DNA from: Thermoleophilaceae bacterium
GTDB taxonomy: Bacteria; Actinomycetota; Thermoleophilia; Solirubrobacterales; Thermoleophilaceae
DNA: 64,000 bases
Direction: 5' to 3'
NCBI GenBank assembly: GCA_036378175.1
Contig: DASUWY010000024.1
Span: 1-64,000, forward strand
In this document: positions 20,159 through 41,926 of the stretch, piece by piece
Position numbering within the stretch: position 1 is the stretch's first letter
Layout: every line of letters begins with the position of its first letter
Notes under the pieces: generated by a model
Told to the model about the DNA's origin: nothing
The model's database searches: none
The model's input: the letters and a program-made list of their open reading frames with translations, nothing else
Program-made: the position numbers and the translations under genes

Positions 20159-20536
20159 CTACTCGGCCCTGCGGAGCCACTGAGGCCGGTGTGGGCGGCG
20201 TGCGCGCGCCCACGCCGCGAGCCGCTCGCGACGGCTCGGAGTCTGTGCGAGCGGCATCGGCACGGCGCCGCGTGTCTCCACCTGCTCGAGTGCCGCCTGC
20301 CGCTTGAAGCTGTCGAGAAACAGCATCCAGAACCCCACCACGAACGTGGCGCAGAAGGGGATCAGCACCGCGGTGATCACGTAGACGGGCGGAAGGCCCT
20401 GCACGTTGTCCGTGACGTACTGCTTCTCGCCGAAGTGGTTCACCGTGACGATCACGAACACCACCATCAGGGTGGCGAACAGCAACATGGCGCAGAGTGC
20501 GAATAAGCGTACGAACCAGCGCCAGGTAGCCGCCAT
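20159..20536 (-). CDS. Small two-TM membrane protein of unknown function
   Basis: 125 residues. Two hydrophobic segments are clear, about 10-30 (LFALCAMLLFATLMVVFVIV) and about 50-75 (VYVITAVLIPFCATFVVGF), separated by a short polar loop with HFGEKQYVTDN. The C-terminus is basic and Arg/Pro-rich. Start ATG at 20536 is chosen because upstream in-frame codons translate the heptamer repeat array. I do not recognise a family. It is convergent with the GGDEF-EAL gene (4-base gap) and divergent from the TetR gene, so it could be co-regulated with the latter from the shared 120-base intergenic region. Confidence 0.72.
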   Translation of the reverse strand: MAATWRWFVRLFALCAMLLFATLMVVFVIVTVNHFGEKQYVTDNVQGLPPVYVITAVLIPFCATFVVGFWMLFLDSFKRQAALEQVETRGAVPMPLAQTPSRRERLAAWARARRPHRPQWLRRAE

Positions 20537-20551
20537 GGGTGAACGGTAGCC

Positions 20552-20593
20552 GAGGTCCGAGGTCGGAGGCGGGAGGTCGGGGGTCGGACGGGG
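20552..20593. repeat. Heptanucleotide tandem repeat array (six units)
   Basis: Six back-to-back 7-base units: GAGGTCC, GAGGTCG, GAGGCGG, GAGGTCG, GGGGTCG, GACGGGG. They lie in the intergenic region between the small membrane protein and the TetR gene. The register is kept across all 42 bases with one or two changes per unit. A second heptamer array of different unit sequence is at 39034-39061. Such arrays resemble the short tandemly repeated repetitive elements known from cyanobacteria in form, not in sequence. Confidence 0.85.
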
Positions 20594-20629
20594 CTCGCTC
20601 TGGGCACTGTCTCCGCCTTGACCCAAGCT

Positions 20630-20645
20630 GTGAATCGTGATTCAC
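20630..20645. promoter_or_regulatory. Perfect inverted repeat, probable TetR-family operator
   Basis: GTGAATC-GT-GATTCAC, a perfect palindrome with 7-base arms and a 2-base centre, 12 bases before the ATG of the TetR gene. A TTGACC at 20618-20623 could be the -35 element of a promoter that the operator covers. Position and symmetry are those of an autoregulatory TetR site. It also decides the start: the in-frame ATT/GTG-type start at 20637 falls inside the palindrome, so ATG at 20658 is preferred. Confidence 0.75.
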
Positions 20646-20657
20646 TTCTTCACCACG

Positions 20658-21305
20658 ATGGCGTACCGGACCACAGCGCGGACGCAGGCTCGGCTCGATG
20701 CCACGCGTGAGCGGATCGTGGATGCGGCTCGGCAGCAGGTGGGCGAAGCCGGCTATGCGTCGGCCAGCGTGCAGGCCGTGGCGAAGCGTGCCGGGGTGGC
20801 CACCGGGAGCGTGTACCGCCACTTCCCATCGAAGGCGGACCTGTTCTCCGAGGTGTTCCGCCGCGCGTCGCAGCGCGAGCTCGACGTGGTGACCGGGGTG
20901 ACCGAGGACGAGACCCTCTCGGCGCCGGAGCGCGTGGTGCACGCGGCCGAGGCGTTCGCACGCCGCGCCCTCGCGGCGCCCACCCTCGCGTACGCCCTGC
21001 TCGCAGAGCCCGTCGATCCGGCCGTGGAGGCGGAACGCCTCAGCTTCCGGCGCGGCTACCGGGACGCCTTCGCAACGGTGCTCGAACAGGGCATCGCCGC
21101 CGGCGAGTTCCGCGAGCTCGACTCGCAGGTCGCGGCCGCTGCGATCGTCGGCGCACTCGGCGAGGCGCTGCTCGGCCCGCTCTCCCCCGCCTCGAATGGC
21201 CGCGCTGCGCGACAGCACCACGACGCCCTCGTGGCCAACCTTGTCCAGTTCTGTCTCAATGCAATAGAGGAGAAGACGCATGTCGGTGCTCGATCGCACT
21301 CATGA
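20658..21305 (+). CDS. TetR/AcrR-family transcriptional regulator
   Basis: 215-residue one-component repressor. The N-terminal DNA-binding domain is complete: RERIVDAARQQVGEAGYASA, then the helix-turn-helix VQAVAKRAGVATGSVYRHFPSKADLF. The C-terminal ligand domain is all-helical. ATG at 20658 is the start. The last 26 bases overlap the acyl-CoA dehydrogenase gene, so regulator, dehydrogenase and PPOX-fold gene form one transcription unit, most simply controlled from the palindrome at 20630. The enzyme partner suggests that the effector is an acyl-CoA or fatty acid, as for FadR-like TetR proteins; this is inference. Confidence 0.93.
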   Translation: MAYRTTARTQARLDATRERIVDAARQQVGEAGYASASVQAVAKRAGVATGSVYRHFPSKADLFSEVFRRASQRELDVVTGVTEDETLSAPERVVHAAEAFARRALAAPTLAYALLAEPVDPAVEAERLSFRRGYRDAFATVLEQGIAAGEFRELDSQVAAAAIVGALGEALLGPLSPASNGRAARQHHDALVANLVQFCLNAIEEKTHVGARSHS

Positions 21306-33468: not shown

Positions 33469-36333
33469 TCACGCGCCGAACAGCTTCGCGCGATGCAGCA
33501 CGTCGCGCACATACCAGCCTGCGTGGTTGTAGGCGAAGATCGCGCGCTTGTAGCTGTGGGGGGCGCCGCTCGCCCGGAGGTAACGCGCCGTGGAGAAGAC
33601 TGCGTCGACCGAGTTGTAGGGACTCGCCTTGCGGTCGCCGTCGGCGTCCATCCCCCAGCGCTTCCACGTTGCGGGCATGAACTGCGTCCAACCGATGGCT
33701 CCGGCTTTCGACGGCCCCATGTTGCAGCCGAAGCCCGACTCGATCTGCGTGATCGCCGCCAGCACCTGCCACTTCAGCCCGAAGGCCCGGGCTGCGGCAG
33801 CCCAGGTGGGCTTGAGCACGGCCGCGCTCGTGCACGGGTGGACGGCGCGCACGTGCGAGCGCACGCTCGGGTGGTGCCCTCGATAGTTCGCCGCGCTCGC
33901 GAGTCGCACGAGCGACCCCTTTCGAACCGTCGGCGCCGGCGACGAGGGCGGCTTGCTCGGCGCGTGGTCGCCACCACCGCTCGCGCTGTGGTGCACCTCG
34001 CAGGAGTTCAGCCTGTCCTTCTTCCTCCCGGAGGTGTCCGCCGAGAGGCTGTCGCGTCCGGTGCCGCAGCGCACGAGGTCGGGGTACTTGTCGCGTGCGT
34101 CGATGCTGTCGTTGCCCGCGCCGCCGTCGATGCGGTCACGGCCCGAGCCGCCGCTGATGTGGTCGTTGCCGTCCTCGCCGGCGAGCACGTCGTCGCCGCC
34201 GTAGCCGTTGATCGTGTCGTTGCCGGGGCCGCCGTAGATCGTGTTCGAGCCGTTGTTGCCCGAGAGCGCGTCGTTCCCGCGCCCGCCGCGGACCACGTCG
34301 ATCGCGTTCTGCACGTTGTCGTGCTCGCCGGGCGCGCCGTCGTTCGCCTGGTCGTCGAGCGTGACGGTGACTGGGATGGTGCGGTTCGAGTAGTCCACCA
34401 TGTCGATGCCGGGGCCACCGGCCATCTGATCCGCGCCCAGGCCGCCGTCGATCACGTCGTCGCCCGGCCCGCCCTGGATCGTGTTGTTCTGAGCGTCGCC
34501 GATCAGGTGGTCGCTGCCGTTGCCGCCGACGATCGACTCGACGTCAGTGTGAACGTTGTCGCCCTCGCCAGGCTCGCCGTCGTTCACCTGGTCATCCAGC
34601 GTGACCGTCACCGGCGCTGTGCGGAGCGAGTAGTCGGAGGTGTCGCTGCCTGATCCGCCCTGCATGTCGTCGGCGCCGGAGCTGCCGTCGAGGAAGTCGT
34701 CGCCCGAGCCACCCTGGAGGGAGTCGTTGCCGGCGCCGCCCACGAGCGTGTCCGAGCCGCCGCCTCCGATCAGCGTGTTGGGCCCGGCGTCACCGATCAG
34801 CCGGTCGCCGCCGGCGCCGCCGGTCACGTTCTCCGTCGTCACGTTGTCCTGCTCGCCGTTCTCGCCGTCGTTTGCCACCCCGTCGAGCGTGATCGTCACG
34901 GGCGCTTTGTCTGAGGAGTAGTCGGCCAGGTCCGTGCCGTCGCCGCCTTCCAGCACGTCGTTGCCGGCGCCGCCGTCGAGGGTGTCGTTGCCGGCGCCGC
35001 CGTTCAGGATGTTGCTCGCGCTGTCGCCCGTGATCCTGTCTGCGCCGCTGCCGCCGTTCACGTTCTCCACGTCGCTCTTCACGTTGTCGTGCTCGCCCGA
35101 GGCGCCGTCGTCGCCGCTGTTGTTGAGCGAGATGGTGAGCGCCGCGCTGCGCGAGGAATAGTCGGCGAGGTCCTCGCCGTCGCCTCCCGCAAGGGTGTCG
35201 GCGCCGTCGCCGCCGTCGAGCGTGTCGTTGCCAATGCCACCCTGCAGGTTGTCGTAGCCCGCGCCGCCGCCCAGCTCGTCGTTGCCCGCGCCGCCGTCGA
35301 GCGAGTCGCCGCCGTTGCCGCCGTCGAGGTGGTCGTCGCCCACGCTGCCGCTGAGGATGTCGTTGCCAGCGCCCCCGCTCAGCGTGTCGTTGCCGGCGCC
35401 GCCGTAGAGAGTGTTGTTACTCGAGTTGCCGGCGAGCGTGTCGTTCCCCGCCCCGCCCGTGAGCACCTCCACGTCGCCGGCGAGATTGTCGTGCTCGCCC
35501 GCCTCGCCGTCGTTGGCCTGCCCGTCGAGGCTGAGGCTCACCGCGGCAGCGCGGCTCGAGTAGTCGGCGGTGTCGGTGCCGGTGCCGCCGTTCACCGCGT
35601 CCGCGCCGCTGCCGCCGTCCAGGAGGTCGTTCCCGCCGTCGCCGTTCAGCGTGTCATCGCCCGCCTGGCCGTAGAGGACGTCGTTGCCGCTGCCGCCGCC
35701 GAGCGTGTCATTGCCGGGTCCGCCGTAGAGGGTGTTGCTGTACCAGCTGCCGGTGATCCTGTCGTCGCCGGAGCCGCCGGTCACAACTTCCACGTCGGTC
35801 TTGACGTTGTCCTTCTCGCCGGACTCGCCGTCGTTTGCGTAGCTGTCGATCGACACCGTGAGCGGCGCGCTGCGTGCCGAGTAATCCACCACATCCTGGC
35901 CGCCGCGGCCCGAGTAGCTGTCCGAGCCGCTGCCGGCGAGGAACGTGTCCGCCCCGCCGCCGCCCGTCATCGTGTCGTTGCCGGGACCGTCGTCGAAGGT
36001 CGTCGGGATCGAGGTGGAGGCCACGCTCGCCGTGTCGTTCATGTCTCCCGCGTTGATCGCCATCGCGGCCACAGCCGCGGACGGACACGTGGCCTTTGTC
36101 GAGCTGACGCTCGTGCAGCCCGGCCCGGCGGTCACCGTCGCCCCCGTGTCGCTGACGGTGAGCGCGCCGCTCGAGGAGGAGACCGTGAGGTTGTTGGTCT
36201 CGCCCGGAGCCGCGTCGTAGGTGAGCGTCGGGCCGTCGACCTGGACGGTGGAGGCCGCCGCCGGGGCGGCCGTGACCGCCGTGCCAAGGGCGACGGCGGC
36301 GAAGATCAGAGTCCTGCGAAAGCGTCGGTTCAT
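33469..36333 (-). CDS. Secreted RTX (Ca-binding repeat) protein with C-terminal lytic transglycosylase
   Basis: 954 residues. Signal peptide 1-27 ([22 protein letters not shown]). Residues about 115-770 hold many GGxGxDxLx nonapeptides ([20 protein letters not shown] and similar), arranged as blocks separated by a recurring module [25 protein letters not shown]. After a Pro/Ser linker (about 800-825) comes an SLT/MltB-like domain: catalytic Glu in [11 protein letters not shown] (about 865), [30 protein letters not shown] and [15 protein letters not shown] repeats fold on binding Ca outside the cell; the enzyme part cleaves peptidoglycan. No Shine-Dalgarno is evident at ATG 36333. Confidence 0.92.
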
Positions 36334-39033: not shown

Positions 39034-39061
39034 GCCCTATGCCCCATGCCCTACGCCCTAC
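39034..39061. repeat. Heptanucleotide tandem repeat array (four units)
   Basis: GCCCTAT, GCCCCAT, GCCCTAC, GCCCTAC in perfect register, 5 bases after the amidase stop and running into the convergent gene, whose TAG stop (39058-39060) lies inside the last unit. Same unit length as the array at 20552-20593 but a different sequence. Confidence 0.8.
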
Positions 39062-41910
39062 AGGCCCAAATCAGCCAGCAGCGCCTCAACCACCCGCGGA
39101 TCGAACTGCGTGCCAGAGCAGCGGCGCATCTCGGCCGCCGCCTCCTCGGCTGAGCGTGCCTTGCTGTACGGCCGGTCCGACGTCATCGCGTGAAAGGCGT
39201 CGCAGGCGCAGACGATGCGCGCGCCGAGCGGAATCTCGTCGCCCGCGAGGCCGTCGGGATAGCCGCGGCCGTCCCAGCGCTCGTGAGCCGAGCGCACGAT
39301 CGGCTGCACCGGCGCGAAGAACGGGATCCGCTCGAGCATCTTCGCCCCGATCACCGTGTGCTGCTTGATCTCCTCGAACTCCGCCCCGGTGAGCCGACCA
39401 GGCTTTTTGAGCACCTCGCTGCGCACCCCGATCTTCCCGATGTCGTGAAGCAGGGCGCCGTAGCGCACGATCCGCAGCTCCTCCTCCTCGAGCCCCAGCC
39501 GGCGACTGACGCCCACGGCCACGTCGGCCACATCGTCGGCGTGGGCGGCCGTGTAGGAGTCCTTCGCCTCGAGCGCGTCCGACAGCACGGCGAGCGTGGT
39601 GGTGAAGGTGGACTCGAGCTCGTCGAAGAGGCGACTGCGGTGCAGCGCGCCGCCGACGTACGCGGCCACCGTGTCCACGAGGAGCAGGTCGGCCTCGTCG
39701 AAGCCGCCGGTCTCGAGTGACTCGAGGTCGAGGACGCCCCAGATCTGTCCCGCAACCCTGATCGGCACCGACAGCTCGGAGCCCGACTGCCGCGGCGCGT
39801 CGGTGCCGAGGAAGTCCGGGTCAAGCGTGGTCTCGGTCACAAGCGCTGGCTCGCCGGTGCGCGCCACGCGGCCGTTGATGCCTTCGTGCAGCGACTGCTC
39901 CCACTGCTCGAAGTCGCTCATCTCATAGATGAGCTCGCCCGCGCCGGCGGCCGGCCGCATCATCTCGTCGTCGTCGATGCGGTGGATCACCGCGAGGTAG
40001 CAGCCGAAGGTGCGCCACATCTCCTCCACGGTCACGCGCGTGATCTCGTCCGGGTCGAGCAGCGACGAGAGTCGAGCGGACAGACGGCTCGCCACCGCGA
40101 GGCGCTGCCGCTCGTCCACCTCGGGGGCGCGCAGCAGGACGGGCTTCGGCTCCGCCCGCTGGTCCGGGCGGGCGCGCTTCATCGCATAGAGGTTCTCGTC
40201 GGCGCGAGCGAGAAGGCCTTCCTTGCTCGGCCCGTCGTCCGGCCACACGGCCACGCCAAAGGAGGCGTGGAGCTGCGCCGCCGCGCGCTCGGCCACGGCT
40301 GTGGCGTCGGCCGCGCCGGTTTCCGGCAGGAGCAGCGCGAATTCGTCGCCTCCGATCCGGAAGGCTGTGTCGGAAGCCCGGCAGGTGCCCGCGAGCACCT
40401 CGGCGGTGCGGCGCAGCACACGGTCCCCCTCCGCGTGCCCGGAGATGTCGTTCACCGCCTTGAAGCCGTCGAGGTCGAACAGCACGACGCTCACGCGCCC
40501 GCCGTAACGGCGGCACCGCTCAAGCTCGCGGGCCATCCCTTCGTGGAACTCCCGGTGGTTGCGAAGGCCCGTTAGAGGATCGCGCGAGGCGAGCTCCTGC
40601 TGCGCCTCGTAGAGCCGCGCGTTGGTGAGGGCGATCGCCGCCTGGGTGGCGAACGACTGGAGCACCTCGATGTCGCGCGGCAGGAATACGCGCGCATTCG
40701 GCGCGAGCGCGAGCAGCAGACCAAGCGACTCGCCCCGGTAGGTGAGCGGGGCCGAGCAGAGCGAGCGGAGCGCCTGCGCATTCGAGTCCACGAGCGCGTC
40801 GAGGTCCGGCACGTTGGCGAGGTCCTCGAGCACGAGCGGTGAGTCGTGCACCCGCCGCGCCGATCCCGCCCAGCGCTCGAGCGCCTGAACGGACTCGGGT
40901 GGGAGCGAGGATGCCCGCCGGCAGCGCAGCCCCTCGCCATCGTCCACGAGCAGCGCGAACTGCTTGCCGACCAACGTGGACTGCGCGTTGGCGGTGACCT
41001 TCGCGAGCACCTCCTCGAGACGCAGCTCGGACACGATGTCCTGCAGCGACGCGTTCAGCCGCTGGGTCACGAGCGCCTGATCGCGAACCTGGGCCTCGAG
41101 CTGCCGCCAGGCGCGGCGGCGCACGTCGAGCGCACGGCGCCCGGCGATTGACAGGAGCCCGGCCGTCGCCACCGCGGCTTCGGGCAGGAGCGCCGGATCG
41201 AAGATGCCGGCCGCGCCAAGCATCGCGCCGCCCGCGAGAAGCGACGCGAGAGCGAAGCGCACGTAGGTGCCGCCCGACTCCCACGACACGTCGTAAACGC
41301 ATGCTTCCTCCCCATCGCCCCTGCACAGCGGATGGCTCACGCGCGCCAGCGGTAGCCCGAACAGCGCGGGCACGCACGAGAGCATGCCCTGGTTGTACTG
41401 GCAGTCGAGCGGATGGTGAGGAGTGCCGGTCACGTCCACGTACGCGATCCGCGCGTGCGAGCTGCTGGACTCGAGCAGCTCCATCCGCGCAGTGGCTGTG
41501 AACTTCCCGTTGGCGCGGATGATGTTCTCGTACACGAGCCGCGGCGAGCCGAGCGCGCGAAGGGTGAGCTTGAGCGCCTCGCCCACGTTCAGGTCGATCG
41601 CGCGCTCGCCGAGATGGCGAGCCACCTGCGGGTCGTCGAGCACCTCGGCCGCGGCCTCGAACAGCCGCACCTTCGTGGCGAACGAGAACCAGTGGCCCTC
41701 GTTGCGCAGATCCGCCTCGGCTTCCGTGAGGCCGCACAGCTCGAGCACCCGCTCGAGTGCGGCGCGGCCGCCTCGCTGCTCGACGTAGGCGAGGATCAGC
41801 CGGGAGGTCATTCCGCTCGTCTCCTGGGGCTCGTCCTCCCATGCGACGGGTGGCGGAAGCGGCGCCACGGCGGGCGCGTGCGCGTCCATCTCACGGACGA
41901 CCGGCGACAT
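39058..41910 (-). CDS. Multidomain c-di-GMP protein: V4R-like, GAF, GGDEF, GAF, HD-GYP
   Basis: 950 residues. About 35-215: an N-terminal sensor with HPLCRGDGEEACVYDVSW, resembling V4R-type ligand domains. About 218-257: hydrophobic, perhaps two membrane helices. About 295-435: GAF. About 440-580: GGDEF with intact RIGGDEF and an I-site RASD five residues before it. About 610-765: second GAF. About 775-950: HD-GYP with LLHDIGKIG and HERWDGRGYPDG. It can both make and break c-di-GMP in principle. ATG at 41910 is used; GTG at 41913 is adjacent. A 14-base palindrome lies just upstream. The stop codon falls in a heptamer repeat. Confidence 0.93.
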   Translation of the reverse strand: MSPVVREMDAHAPAVAPLPPPVAWEDEPQETSGMTSRLILAYVEQRGGRAALERVLELCGLTEAEADLRNEGHWFSFATKVRLFEAAAEVLDDPQVARHLGERAIDLNVGEALKLTLRALGSPRLVYENIIRANGKFTATARMELLESSSSHARIAYVDVTGTPHHPLDCQYNQGMLSCVPALFGLPLARVSHPLCRGDGEEACVYDVSWESGGTYVRFALASLLAGGAMLGAAGIFDPALLPEAAVATAGLLSIAGRRALDVRRRAWRQLEAQVRDQALVTQRLNASLQDIVSELRLEEVLAKVTANAQSTLVGKQFALLVDDGEGLRCRRASSLPPESVQALERWAGSARRVHDSPLVLEDLANVPDLDALVDSNAQALRSLCSAPLTYRGESLGLLLALAPNARVFLPRDIEVLQSFATQAAIALTNARLYEAQQELASRDPLTGLRNHREFHEGMARELERCRRYGGRVSVVLFDLDGFKAVNDISGHAEGDRVLRRTAEVLAGTCRASDTAFRIGGDEFALLLPETGAADATAVAERAAAQLHASFGVAVWPDDGPSKEGLLARADENLYAMKRARPDQRAEPKPVLLRAPEVDERQRLAVASRLSARLSSLLDPDEITRVTVEEMWRTFGCYLAVIHRIDDDEMMRPAAGAGELIYEMSDFEQWEQSLHEGINGRVARTGEPALVTETTLDPDFLGTDAPRQSGSELSVPIRVAGQIWGVLDLESLETGGFDEADLLLVDTVAAYVGGALHRSRLFDELESTFTTTLAVLSDALEAKDSYTAAHADDVADVAVGVSRRLGLEEEELRIVRYGALLHDIGKIGVRSEVLKKPGRLTGAEFEEIKQHTVIGAKMLERIPFFAPVQPIVRSAHERWDGRGYPDGLAGDEIPLGARIVCACDAFHAMTSDRPYSKARSAEEAAAEMRRCSGTQFDPRVVEALLADLGL

Positions 41911-41912
41911 CA

Positions 41913-41926
41913 CCCGATTAATCGGG
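41913..41926. promoter_or_regulatory. Perfect 14-base palindrome at the start of the c-di-GMP gene
   Basis: CCCGATTAATCGGG is its own reverse complement and ends two bases before the ATG at 41910. The only Shine-Dalgarno-like GAGG lies on the far side of it. It could be an operator of a dimeric regulator or an RNA hairpin that brings the two together. Confidence 0.45.

Follow-up and report, generated by a model that had tools for sequence, protein, structure and literature searches.

Heptamer tandem arrays dispersed through a Thermoleophilaceae genome and their turnover between sister species

Roughly a hundred heptamer arrays are dispersed over this genome, among them the array at positions 20551-20592 of the window (the whole 64,000-nucleotide stretch of Thermoleophilaceae DNA that was analysed). 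That array is probably a member of a class of dispersed, GG-containing heptamer simple repeats, STRR-like and of the Xanthomonas/Nostoc GGGNATC kind, that are made by slippage and tolerated at the ends of genes. The period of seven bases is strongly over-represented genome-wide, the arrays cluster at gene 3′ ends, the units within an array resemble each other more than those of different arrays, and the sister species, G001, carries many arrays of its own with a different set of words.

On the plus strand the array consists of six G-rich units, CGAGGTC, CGAGGTC, GGAGGCG, GGAGGTC, GGGGGTC and GGACGGG, with the consensus GGAGGTC, which places it in the AGGTCGG family, represented by ten arrays across 1.9 Mb of the genome. 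The initial annotation had described six heptamer units in strict register at 20552-20593; the array itself is real and lies one base earlier, its units being degenerate and the sixth poor. Self-match at lag 7 extends over 20550-20587, and TRF called the array in two overlapping parts, 20550-20569 and 20559-20587, with 83-92% matches. It has no inverted partner and lacks four regular GGG tracts, and its folding is ordinary for the G-rich strand (z 0.42) and weak for the opposite strand (z -1.85).

The array is flanked by a small membrane-protein gene (20159-20536, minus strand), whose start codon, the complement of 20534-20536, is 14 bp away, and by a tetR-family regulator gene (20661-21305, plus strand), upstream of which, ∼40 bp beyond the array, lies a palindromic TetR operator, GTGAATCGTGATTCAC (20630-20645). 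The orthologous locus of G001 has the same gene order (GGDEF, membrane gene, tetR, acyl-CoA dehydrogenase), a tetR gene 84% identical to that of the window, and the operator; the array is missing there although its flanks are kept. The operator palindrome upstream of tetR was recognisable, with small variations, at 14 of 14 orthologous loci, and no heptamer array was seen beside it in G001 or in the upstream stretches displayed for the other loci. With an operator kept in 14 species and a G001 locus that has no array, the two are considered unrelated. The adjacency pointed out in the initial annotation is thus confirmed but a link with the operator is not: the array was rejected as a component of a TetR operator or regulon, the operator is a neighbour outside the array system, and a regulatory function for the array finds no support. 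The operator is itself well conserved: in the window (20620-20655) and at loci L228-L241, the form GTGAATCRTGATTCAC, preceded by a TTGAC-like box, stands upstream of tetR in 14 species of the family, at a locus where tetR adjoins an acyl-CoA dehydrogenase gene and nearly all other intergenic sequence has diverged.

To place the array in its genomic context, catalogues were compiled from 1.9 Mb (44%) of the genome, including stretches selected for arrays, and from 0.37 Mb of G001. In 1.22 Mb of the genome not chosen for arrays, and after removal of two hits common to every period, probably N runs, 23 arrays of period 7 were found, compared with 0-3 at periods 4, 5, 8, 10, 11, and 13 and a single array in a fifth-order Markov control. 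Across the 1.9-Mb set, period 7 yielded 79, 55, and 30 arrays at rising thresholds; at the upper two of these, none of the periods 5, 8, 10, 11, and 13 yielded more than one. Exact lag-7 runs of at least 14 in intergenic DNA numbered 28, against 0-1 for other lags within 4-13. The initial annotation had postulated a genome-wide process that makes 7-base repeats, to be refuted by a scan if no excess appeared; the scan returned a strong, period-specific excess over both the other periods and the Markov control.

A second array with another heptamer, reported at 39034-39061, is also present, as seen by TRF and by the lag-7 scan. It is of the GTAGGGC/GGGCATA type, lies on the minus strand between two convergent genes, and contains four GGG tracts in register; read as GTAGGGC... 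on that strand, it contains the TAG at which the minus-strand gene 39058-41913 stops. In G001 no ortholog of the amidase at this locus was found, the best matches being ≤47%, and the orthologous locus of G003 (L304) has no array downstream. By contrast, the short repeats in atpD and atpG, previously attributed to the same process, are ascribed to chance, since two-copy 7-base repeats are not in excess inside coding DNA (166 at lag 7 versus 187, 166, 192, and 169 at lags 4, 5, 8, and 11). Long coding repeats of a different kind, with a 27-base period, occupy 34098-35966 of the minus strand and probably belong to a calcium-binding nonapeptide (RTX-like) protein.

The heptamer words of the genome number about ten, the main ones on the G-rich strand being AGGGCAT, AGGGCGT, AGGTCGG, AGGTCGC, AGGTCAT, AGGCCGG, and GGTGACT. 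Units differ by a mean of 1.5 bases inside one array and by 3.1 between different arrays, and in 67 of the 79 arrays four or more units keep GG in register.

The sister-species comparison rested on about twenty anchored sites in fetched stretches, where alignment of the two genomes covered ∼200 kb, with long collinear blocks mostly 78-89% identical; the G001 contigs had been selected because they carry arrays, whichever the AGGNNNN word, and this choice does not disfavour AGGGCAT. At the roughly ten anchored sites with arrays in both species, the consensus differed by 1-3 bases per unit, mostly 1-2, and was identical at one site, whereas random pairs of arrays differed by a mean of 2.5. Because they are closer than random pairs, orthologous arrays most likely descend from a common array that changed along its whole length, as in AGGGCAT versus AGGTCAT in G001 at L046:17417 and AGGTCGC versus AGGTCGG at L034:19352. 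Unit number and presence also vary between orthologous sites: no same-strand array was called in the other genome for ten G001 arrays and two of the present genome, and some of these absences retain a shorter or degenerate run, for example two units versus four at L267:11951. The comparison of relatives advised in the initial annotation therefore revealed gains, losses, and changes of unit number between sister species. At one pair of orthologous sites (L277:4715 versus L104:6476), a heptamer array of G001 corresponds to a period-8 array, GCAACTCC, in the present genome. A limited literature search found no earlier description of word turnover at orthologous sites.

Homogeneous arrays, small steps between orthologs, and a varying number of units are compatible with local slippage by steps of 7 bases, the motor that we favour. 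Replication slippage would add and remove units, spread point variants through an array and so homogenise it, and act locally on old sites. Against a purely local process stand the dominance of a few words and the retention of GG in most arrays, as a random origin predicts many words. Local slippage also does not predict genome-wide word sets or the same change to AGGTCGC at three orthologous sites, where G001 has AGGTCGG or AGGCCGG; these indicate some genome-wide bias, perhaps ectopic exchange or a word-specific tendency to slip, that would give each genome its own words.

Under concerted evolution across the genome, each genome would drift to its own word set, with scattered arrays exchanging sequence by ectopic gene conversion or fork template switching while their sites stay fixed; we regard it as possible but rather unlikely. 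AGGGCAT, the commonest word here, or AGGGCGT makes up 29 of the 79 arrays and only 1 of 51 in G001 (Fisher p 9e-7), and the parallel AGGTCGC changes are joined by a paired switch at L064:11830 and its inverted partner (L064/L276), where GGGCATA faces GGAGGTC in G001, a case outside the automatic tally owing to its gap limit. Word sets likewise differ between two species of another genus, with mainly GGAAAGC in G006 and GGAC[AG]GT in G019. However, loci do not share the order of variant units more than a reversal null allows (the observed value was reached in 158 and 81 of 1000), and orthologous arrays, at the few sites compared, are closer to each other than random pairs. Copying of multi-unit blocks between loci was rejected: the signal was significant against order shuffling but lost its significance once unit order was reversed, a control that preserves how like units cluster. 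That each species speaks a heptamer "dialect" at scattered, partly conserved sites, kept uniform by trans-acting exchange in the manner of eukaryotic satellite DNA, is a shade more doubtful again.

The positions of the arrays relative to genes bear on both slippage and function. Gene calling relied on a simple codon-usage script, which gave a coding fraction of 0.915 and approximate starts; 54 of the 77 arrays that could be placed were intergenic, compared with 9% of the DNA. Among these 54, arrays between convergent genes were enriched (17, versus 12% of intergenic bases) and those between divergent genes depleted (6, versus 33%). The median distance was 4 bp to an adjacent gene 3′ end and 116 bp to a start, and the G-rich strand was the sense strand for 41 of 59 arrays near 3′ ends. 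Such positions are compatible with tolerance as well as with function. If slippage is the motor, arrays may persist where they do least harm, just past stop codons and between convergent genes; words that contain a stop, such as TAGGGCA, TAGGTCA, and GGTGACT, end a reading frame at once, and stop-free ones such as AGGTCGG can also lie inside frames. Alternatively, the arrays could be selected elements, G-quadruplexes, hairpins, or protein-binding sites that act on termination or mRNA ends. In addition to the 3′-end position and convergent enrichment, this is favoured by neighbouring arrays ≤250 bp apart, which are inverted in 15 of 17 cases (G-rich first in 13 of those) and in some cases form strong hairpins (z -7.9 at L287 and -5.3 at L042), and by four GGG tracts in register, with 43 overlapping matches at about two dozen places in the whole genome, G-quadruplex formation having been reported for similar repeats (PMC4692102). 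Selected function is nonetheless improbable: the 20551-20592 array has neither the GGG tracts nor unusual folding on its G-rich strand and has no counterpart in G001, the turnover of words and of presence is fast, and nearly all other members of the family lack arrays. Some intergenic regions with heptamer arrays, here or in the sister species, also hold a perfect or near-perfect palindrome, CCCAAYYAGCTG...CAGCTARWTGGG (L056:14113, L095:10424, and L095:10498); with just three copies in 1.9 Mb, the REP-like palindrome CCCAATTAGCTGTTCCC was discarded as a repeat element.

Among relatives the arrays are patchily distributed. Four register copies of AGGNNNN were matched 109 times in the present genome and 87 times in G001, but only 0-6 times in each of 39 further genomes of the order. 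Arrays are nearly lacking in most of the family, and three further members (G003, G006, and G019) have 20-31 matches each to a GGANNNN pattern. A survey of 149 genomes of the class recovered one array-rich genus in another family (g48, 5 of 6 species) and a second rich genus, g73. The g48 genomes are 1.6-2.0 Mb in size; G056, G071, G076, G081, and G091 have 34-168 GGANNNN array matches, and G066 has almost none, making this genus a natural pair for finding the cause of the arrays. Beyond the class, at least 117 stretches of public genomes contain exact AGGGCATAGGGCATAGGGCATAGGG. Most of the matches listed come from cyanobacteria, among them Microcoleus, Tychonema, and Nostoc, and a few belong to Planctomycetes, Bacteroidia, Deltaproteobacteria, Bacillota, Cloacimonadota, and Comamonas. 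Public contigs with an AGGGCAT array also peak at period 7, as expected for contigs chosen by an array. Two loci of a Bacillota MAG, Emb289P3bin74 (L155 and L157), carry very dense period-7 arrays, about ten per 8 kb, of many words including AGGGCAT.

Insertion by a mobile element or templated enzyme, such as a reverse transcriptase or REP-associated Y1 transposase, would suit this patchiness and the sharing of a word by distant phyla, but it is very improbable given the distribution of the genes concerned. Reverse-transcriptase templating was rejected as RVT_1 is absent from all five array-bearing family genomes, REP/RAYT transposition as Y1_Tnp occurs in 0 of 31 family genomes, and phage spread as an AGGGCAT array was found on just one viral contig. 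Loss of mismatch repair fares no better, MutS being absent family-wide; NucS is present in four of the five array-bearing genomes (not found in G003, which is 76% complete) and missing in some array-free ones. A lack of MutS alongside NucS may point to an actinobacterial lineage. On these distributions, neither reverse transcriptase, Y1 transposase, nor mismatch-repair loss accounts for the presence of arrays. Chance low-complexity sequence in a GC-rich genome, which might explain the degenerate 20551-20592 array taken alone, unlikely as that is, has a negligible probability for the set as a whole, being refuted by the lag and Markov controls and by relatives of the same order that are almost without arrays.

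These arrays bear on what leads bacteria to form tandem repeats of 7 bases and on how a few words come to reappear in unrelated phyla. Sister species ∼85% identical that carry different words at shared sites, together with array-free genera in the same family, constitute a natural experiment, which g48 repeats in another family with array-rich species and one with almost no matches. A comparison of gene content between array-rich and array-poor pairs could identify the driver of the repeats.

Heptamer repeats of this kind have already been described in bacteria, and the arrays reported here belong among them. The STRR sequences of Calothrix and Nostoc (cited in PMC4692102) are short tandem heptamers with several families per genome. 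The arrays described here resemble them in unit length, in number of families, in the excess of period 7, and in being dispersed and mainly intergenic, and the likeness to cyanobacterial repeats proposed in the initial annotation is strengthened by exact arrays of AGGGCAT, the family word of 39034-39061, which are common in Microcoleus, Tychonema, and Nostoc contigs; they differ in their unrelated, high-GC host and mostly GC-rich words. The GGGNATC and GGGGA(C/T)T heptamers of Xanthomonas and Nostoc (Rehm et al., 2015; PMC4692102) are likewise G-rich and dispersed along the chromosome; most lie between genes, close to stop codons and on the sense strand, and few between divergent genes, some form inverted pairs, and unit number varies. 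Neither of those units is among the main words here (AGGGCAT, AGGTCGG, AGGTCGC, and GGTGACT), the genome carries several words side by side, many of which have GG in place of GGG, and sister species differ in the word found at orthologous sites, whereas 83% of the Xcc repeats were kept in Xac in a search for one fixed word (PMC4692102). At least four GGG tracts in register, as defined for those repeats, occur here at about two dozen places including 39034-39061, though not at 20551-20592. According to the account in PMC4679880, Mrazek et al. (2007) reported that in most genomes heptamers are the most abundant class, and proposed slippage matched to a polymerase footprint. The TAACTGA direct repeats of Beggiatoaceae, Cyanobacteria, and Bacteroidetes (MacGregor, 2015; PMC4679880) are also dispersed intergenic heptamers with a stop-containing word and a patchy distribution across phyla; they comprise a single word, placed for the most part immediately before start codons, whereas the arrays described here comprise many words and lie mostly at the 3′ ends of genes.
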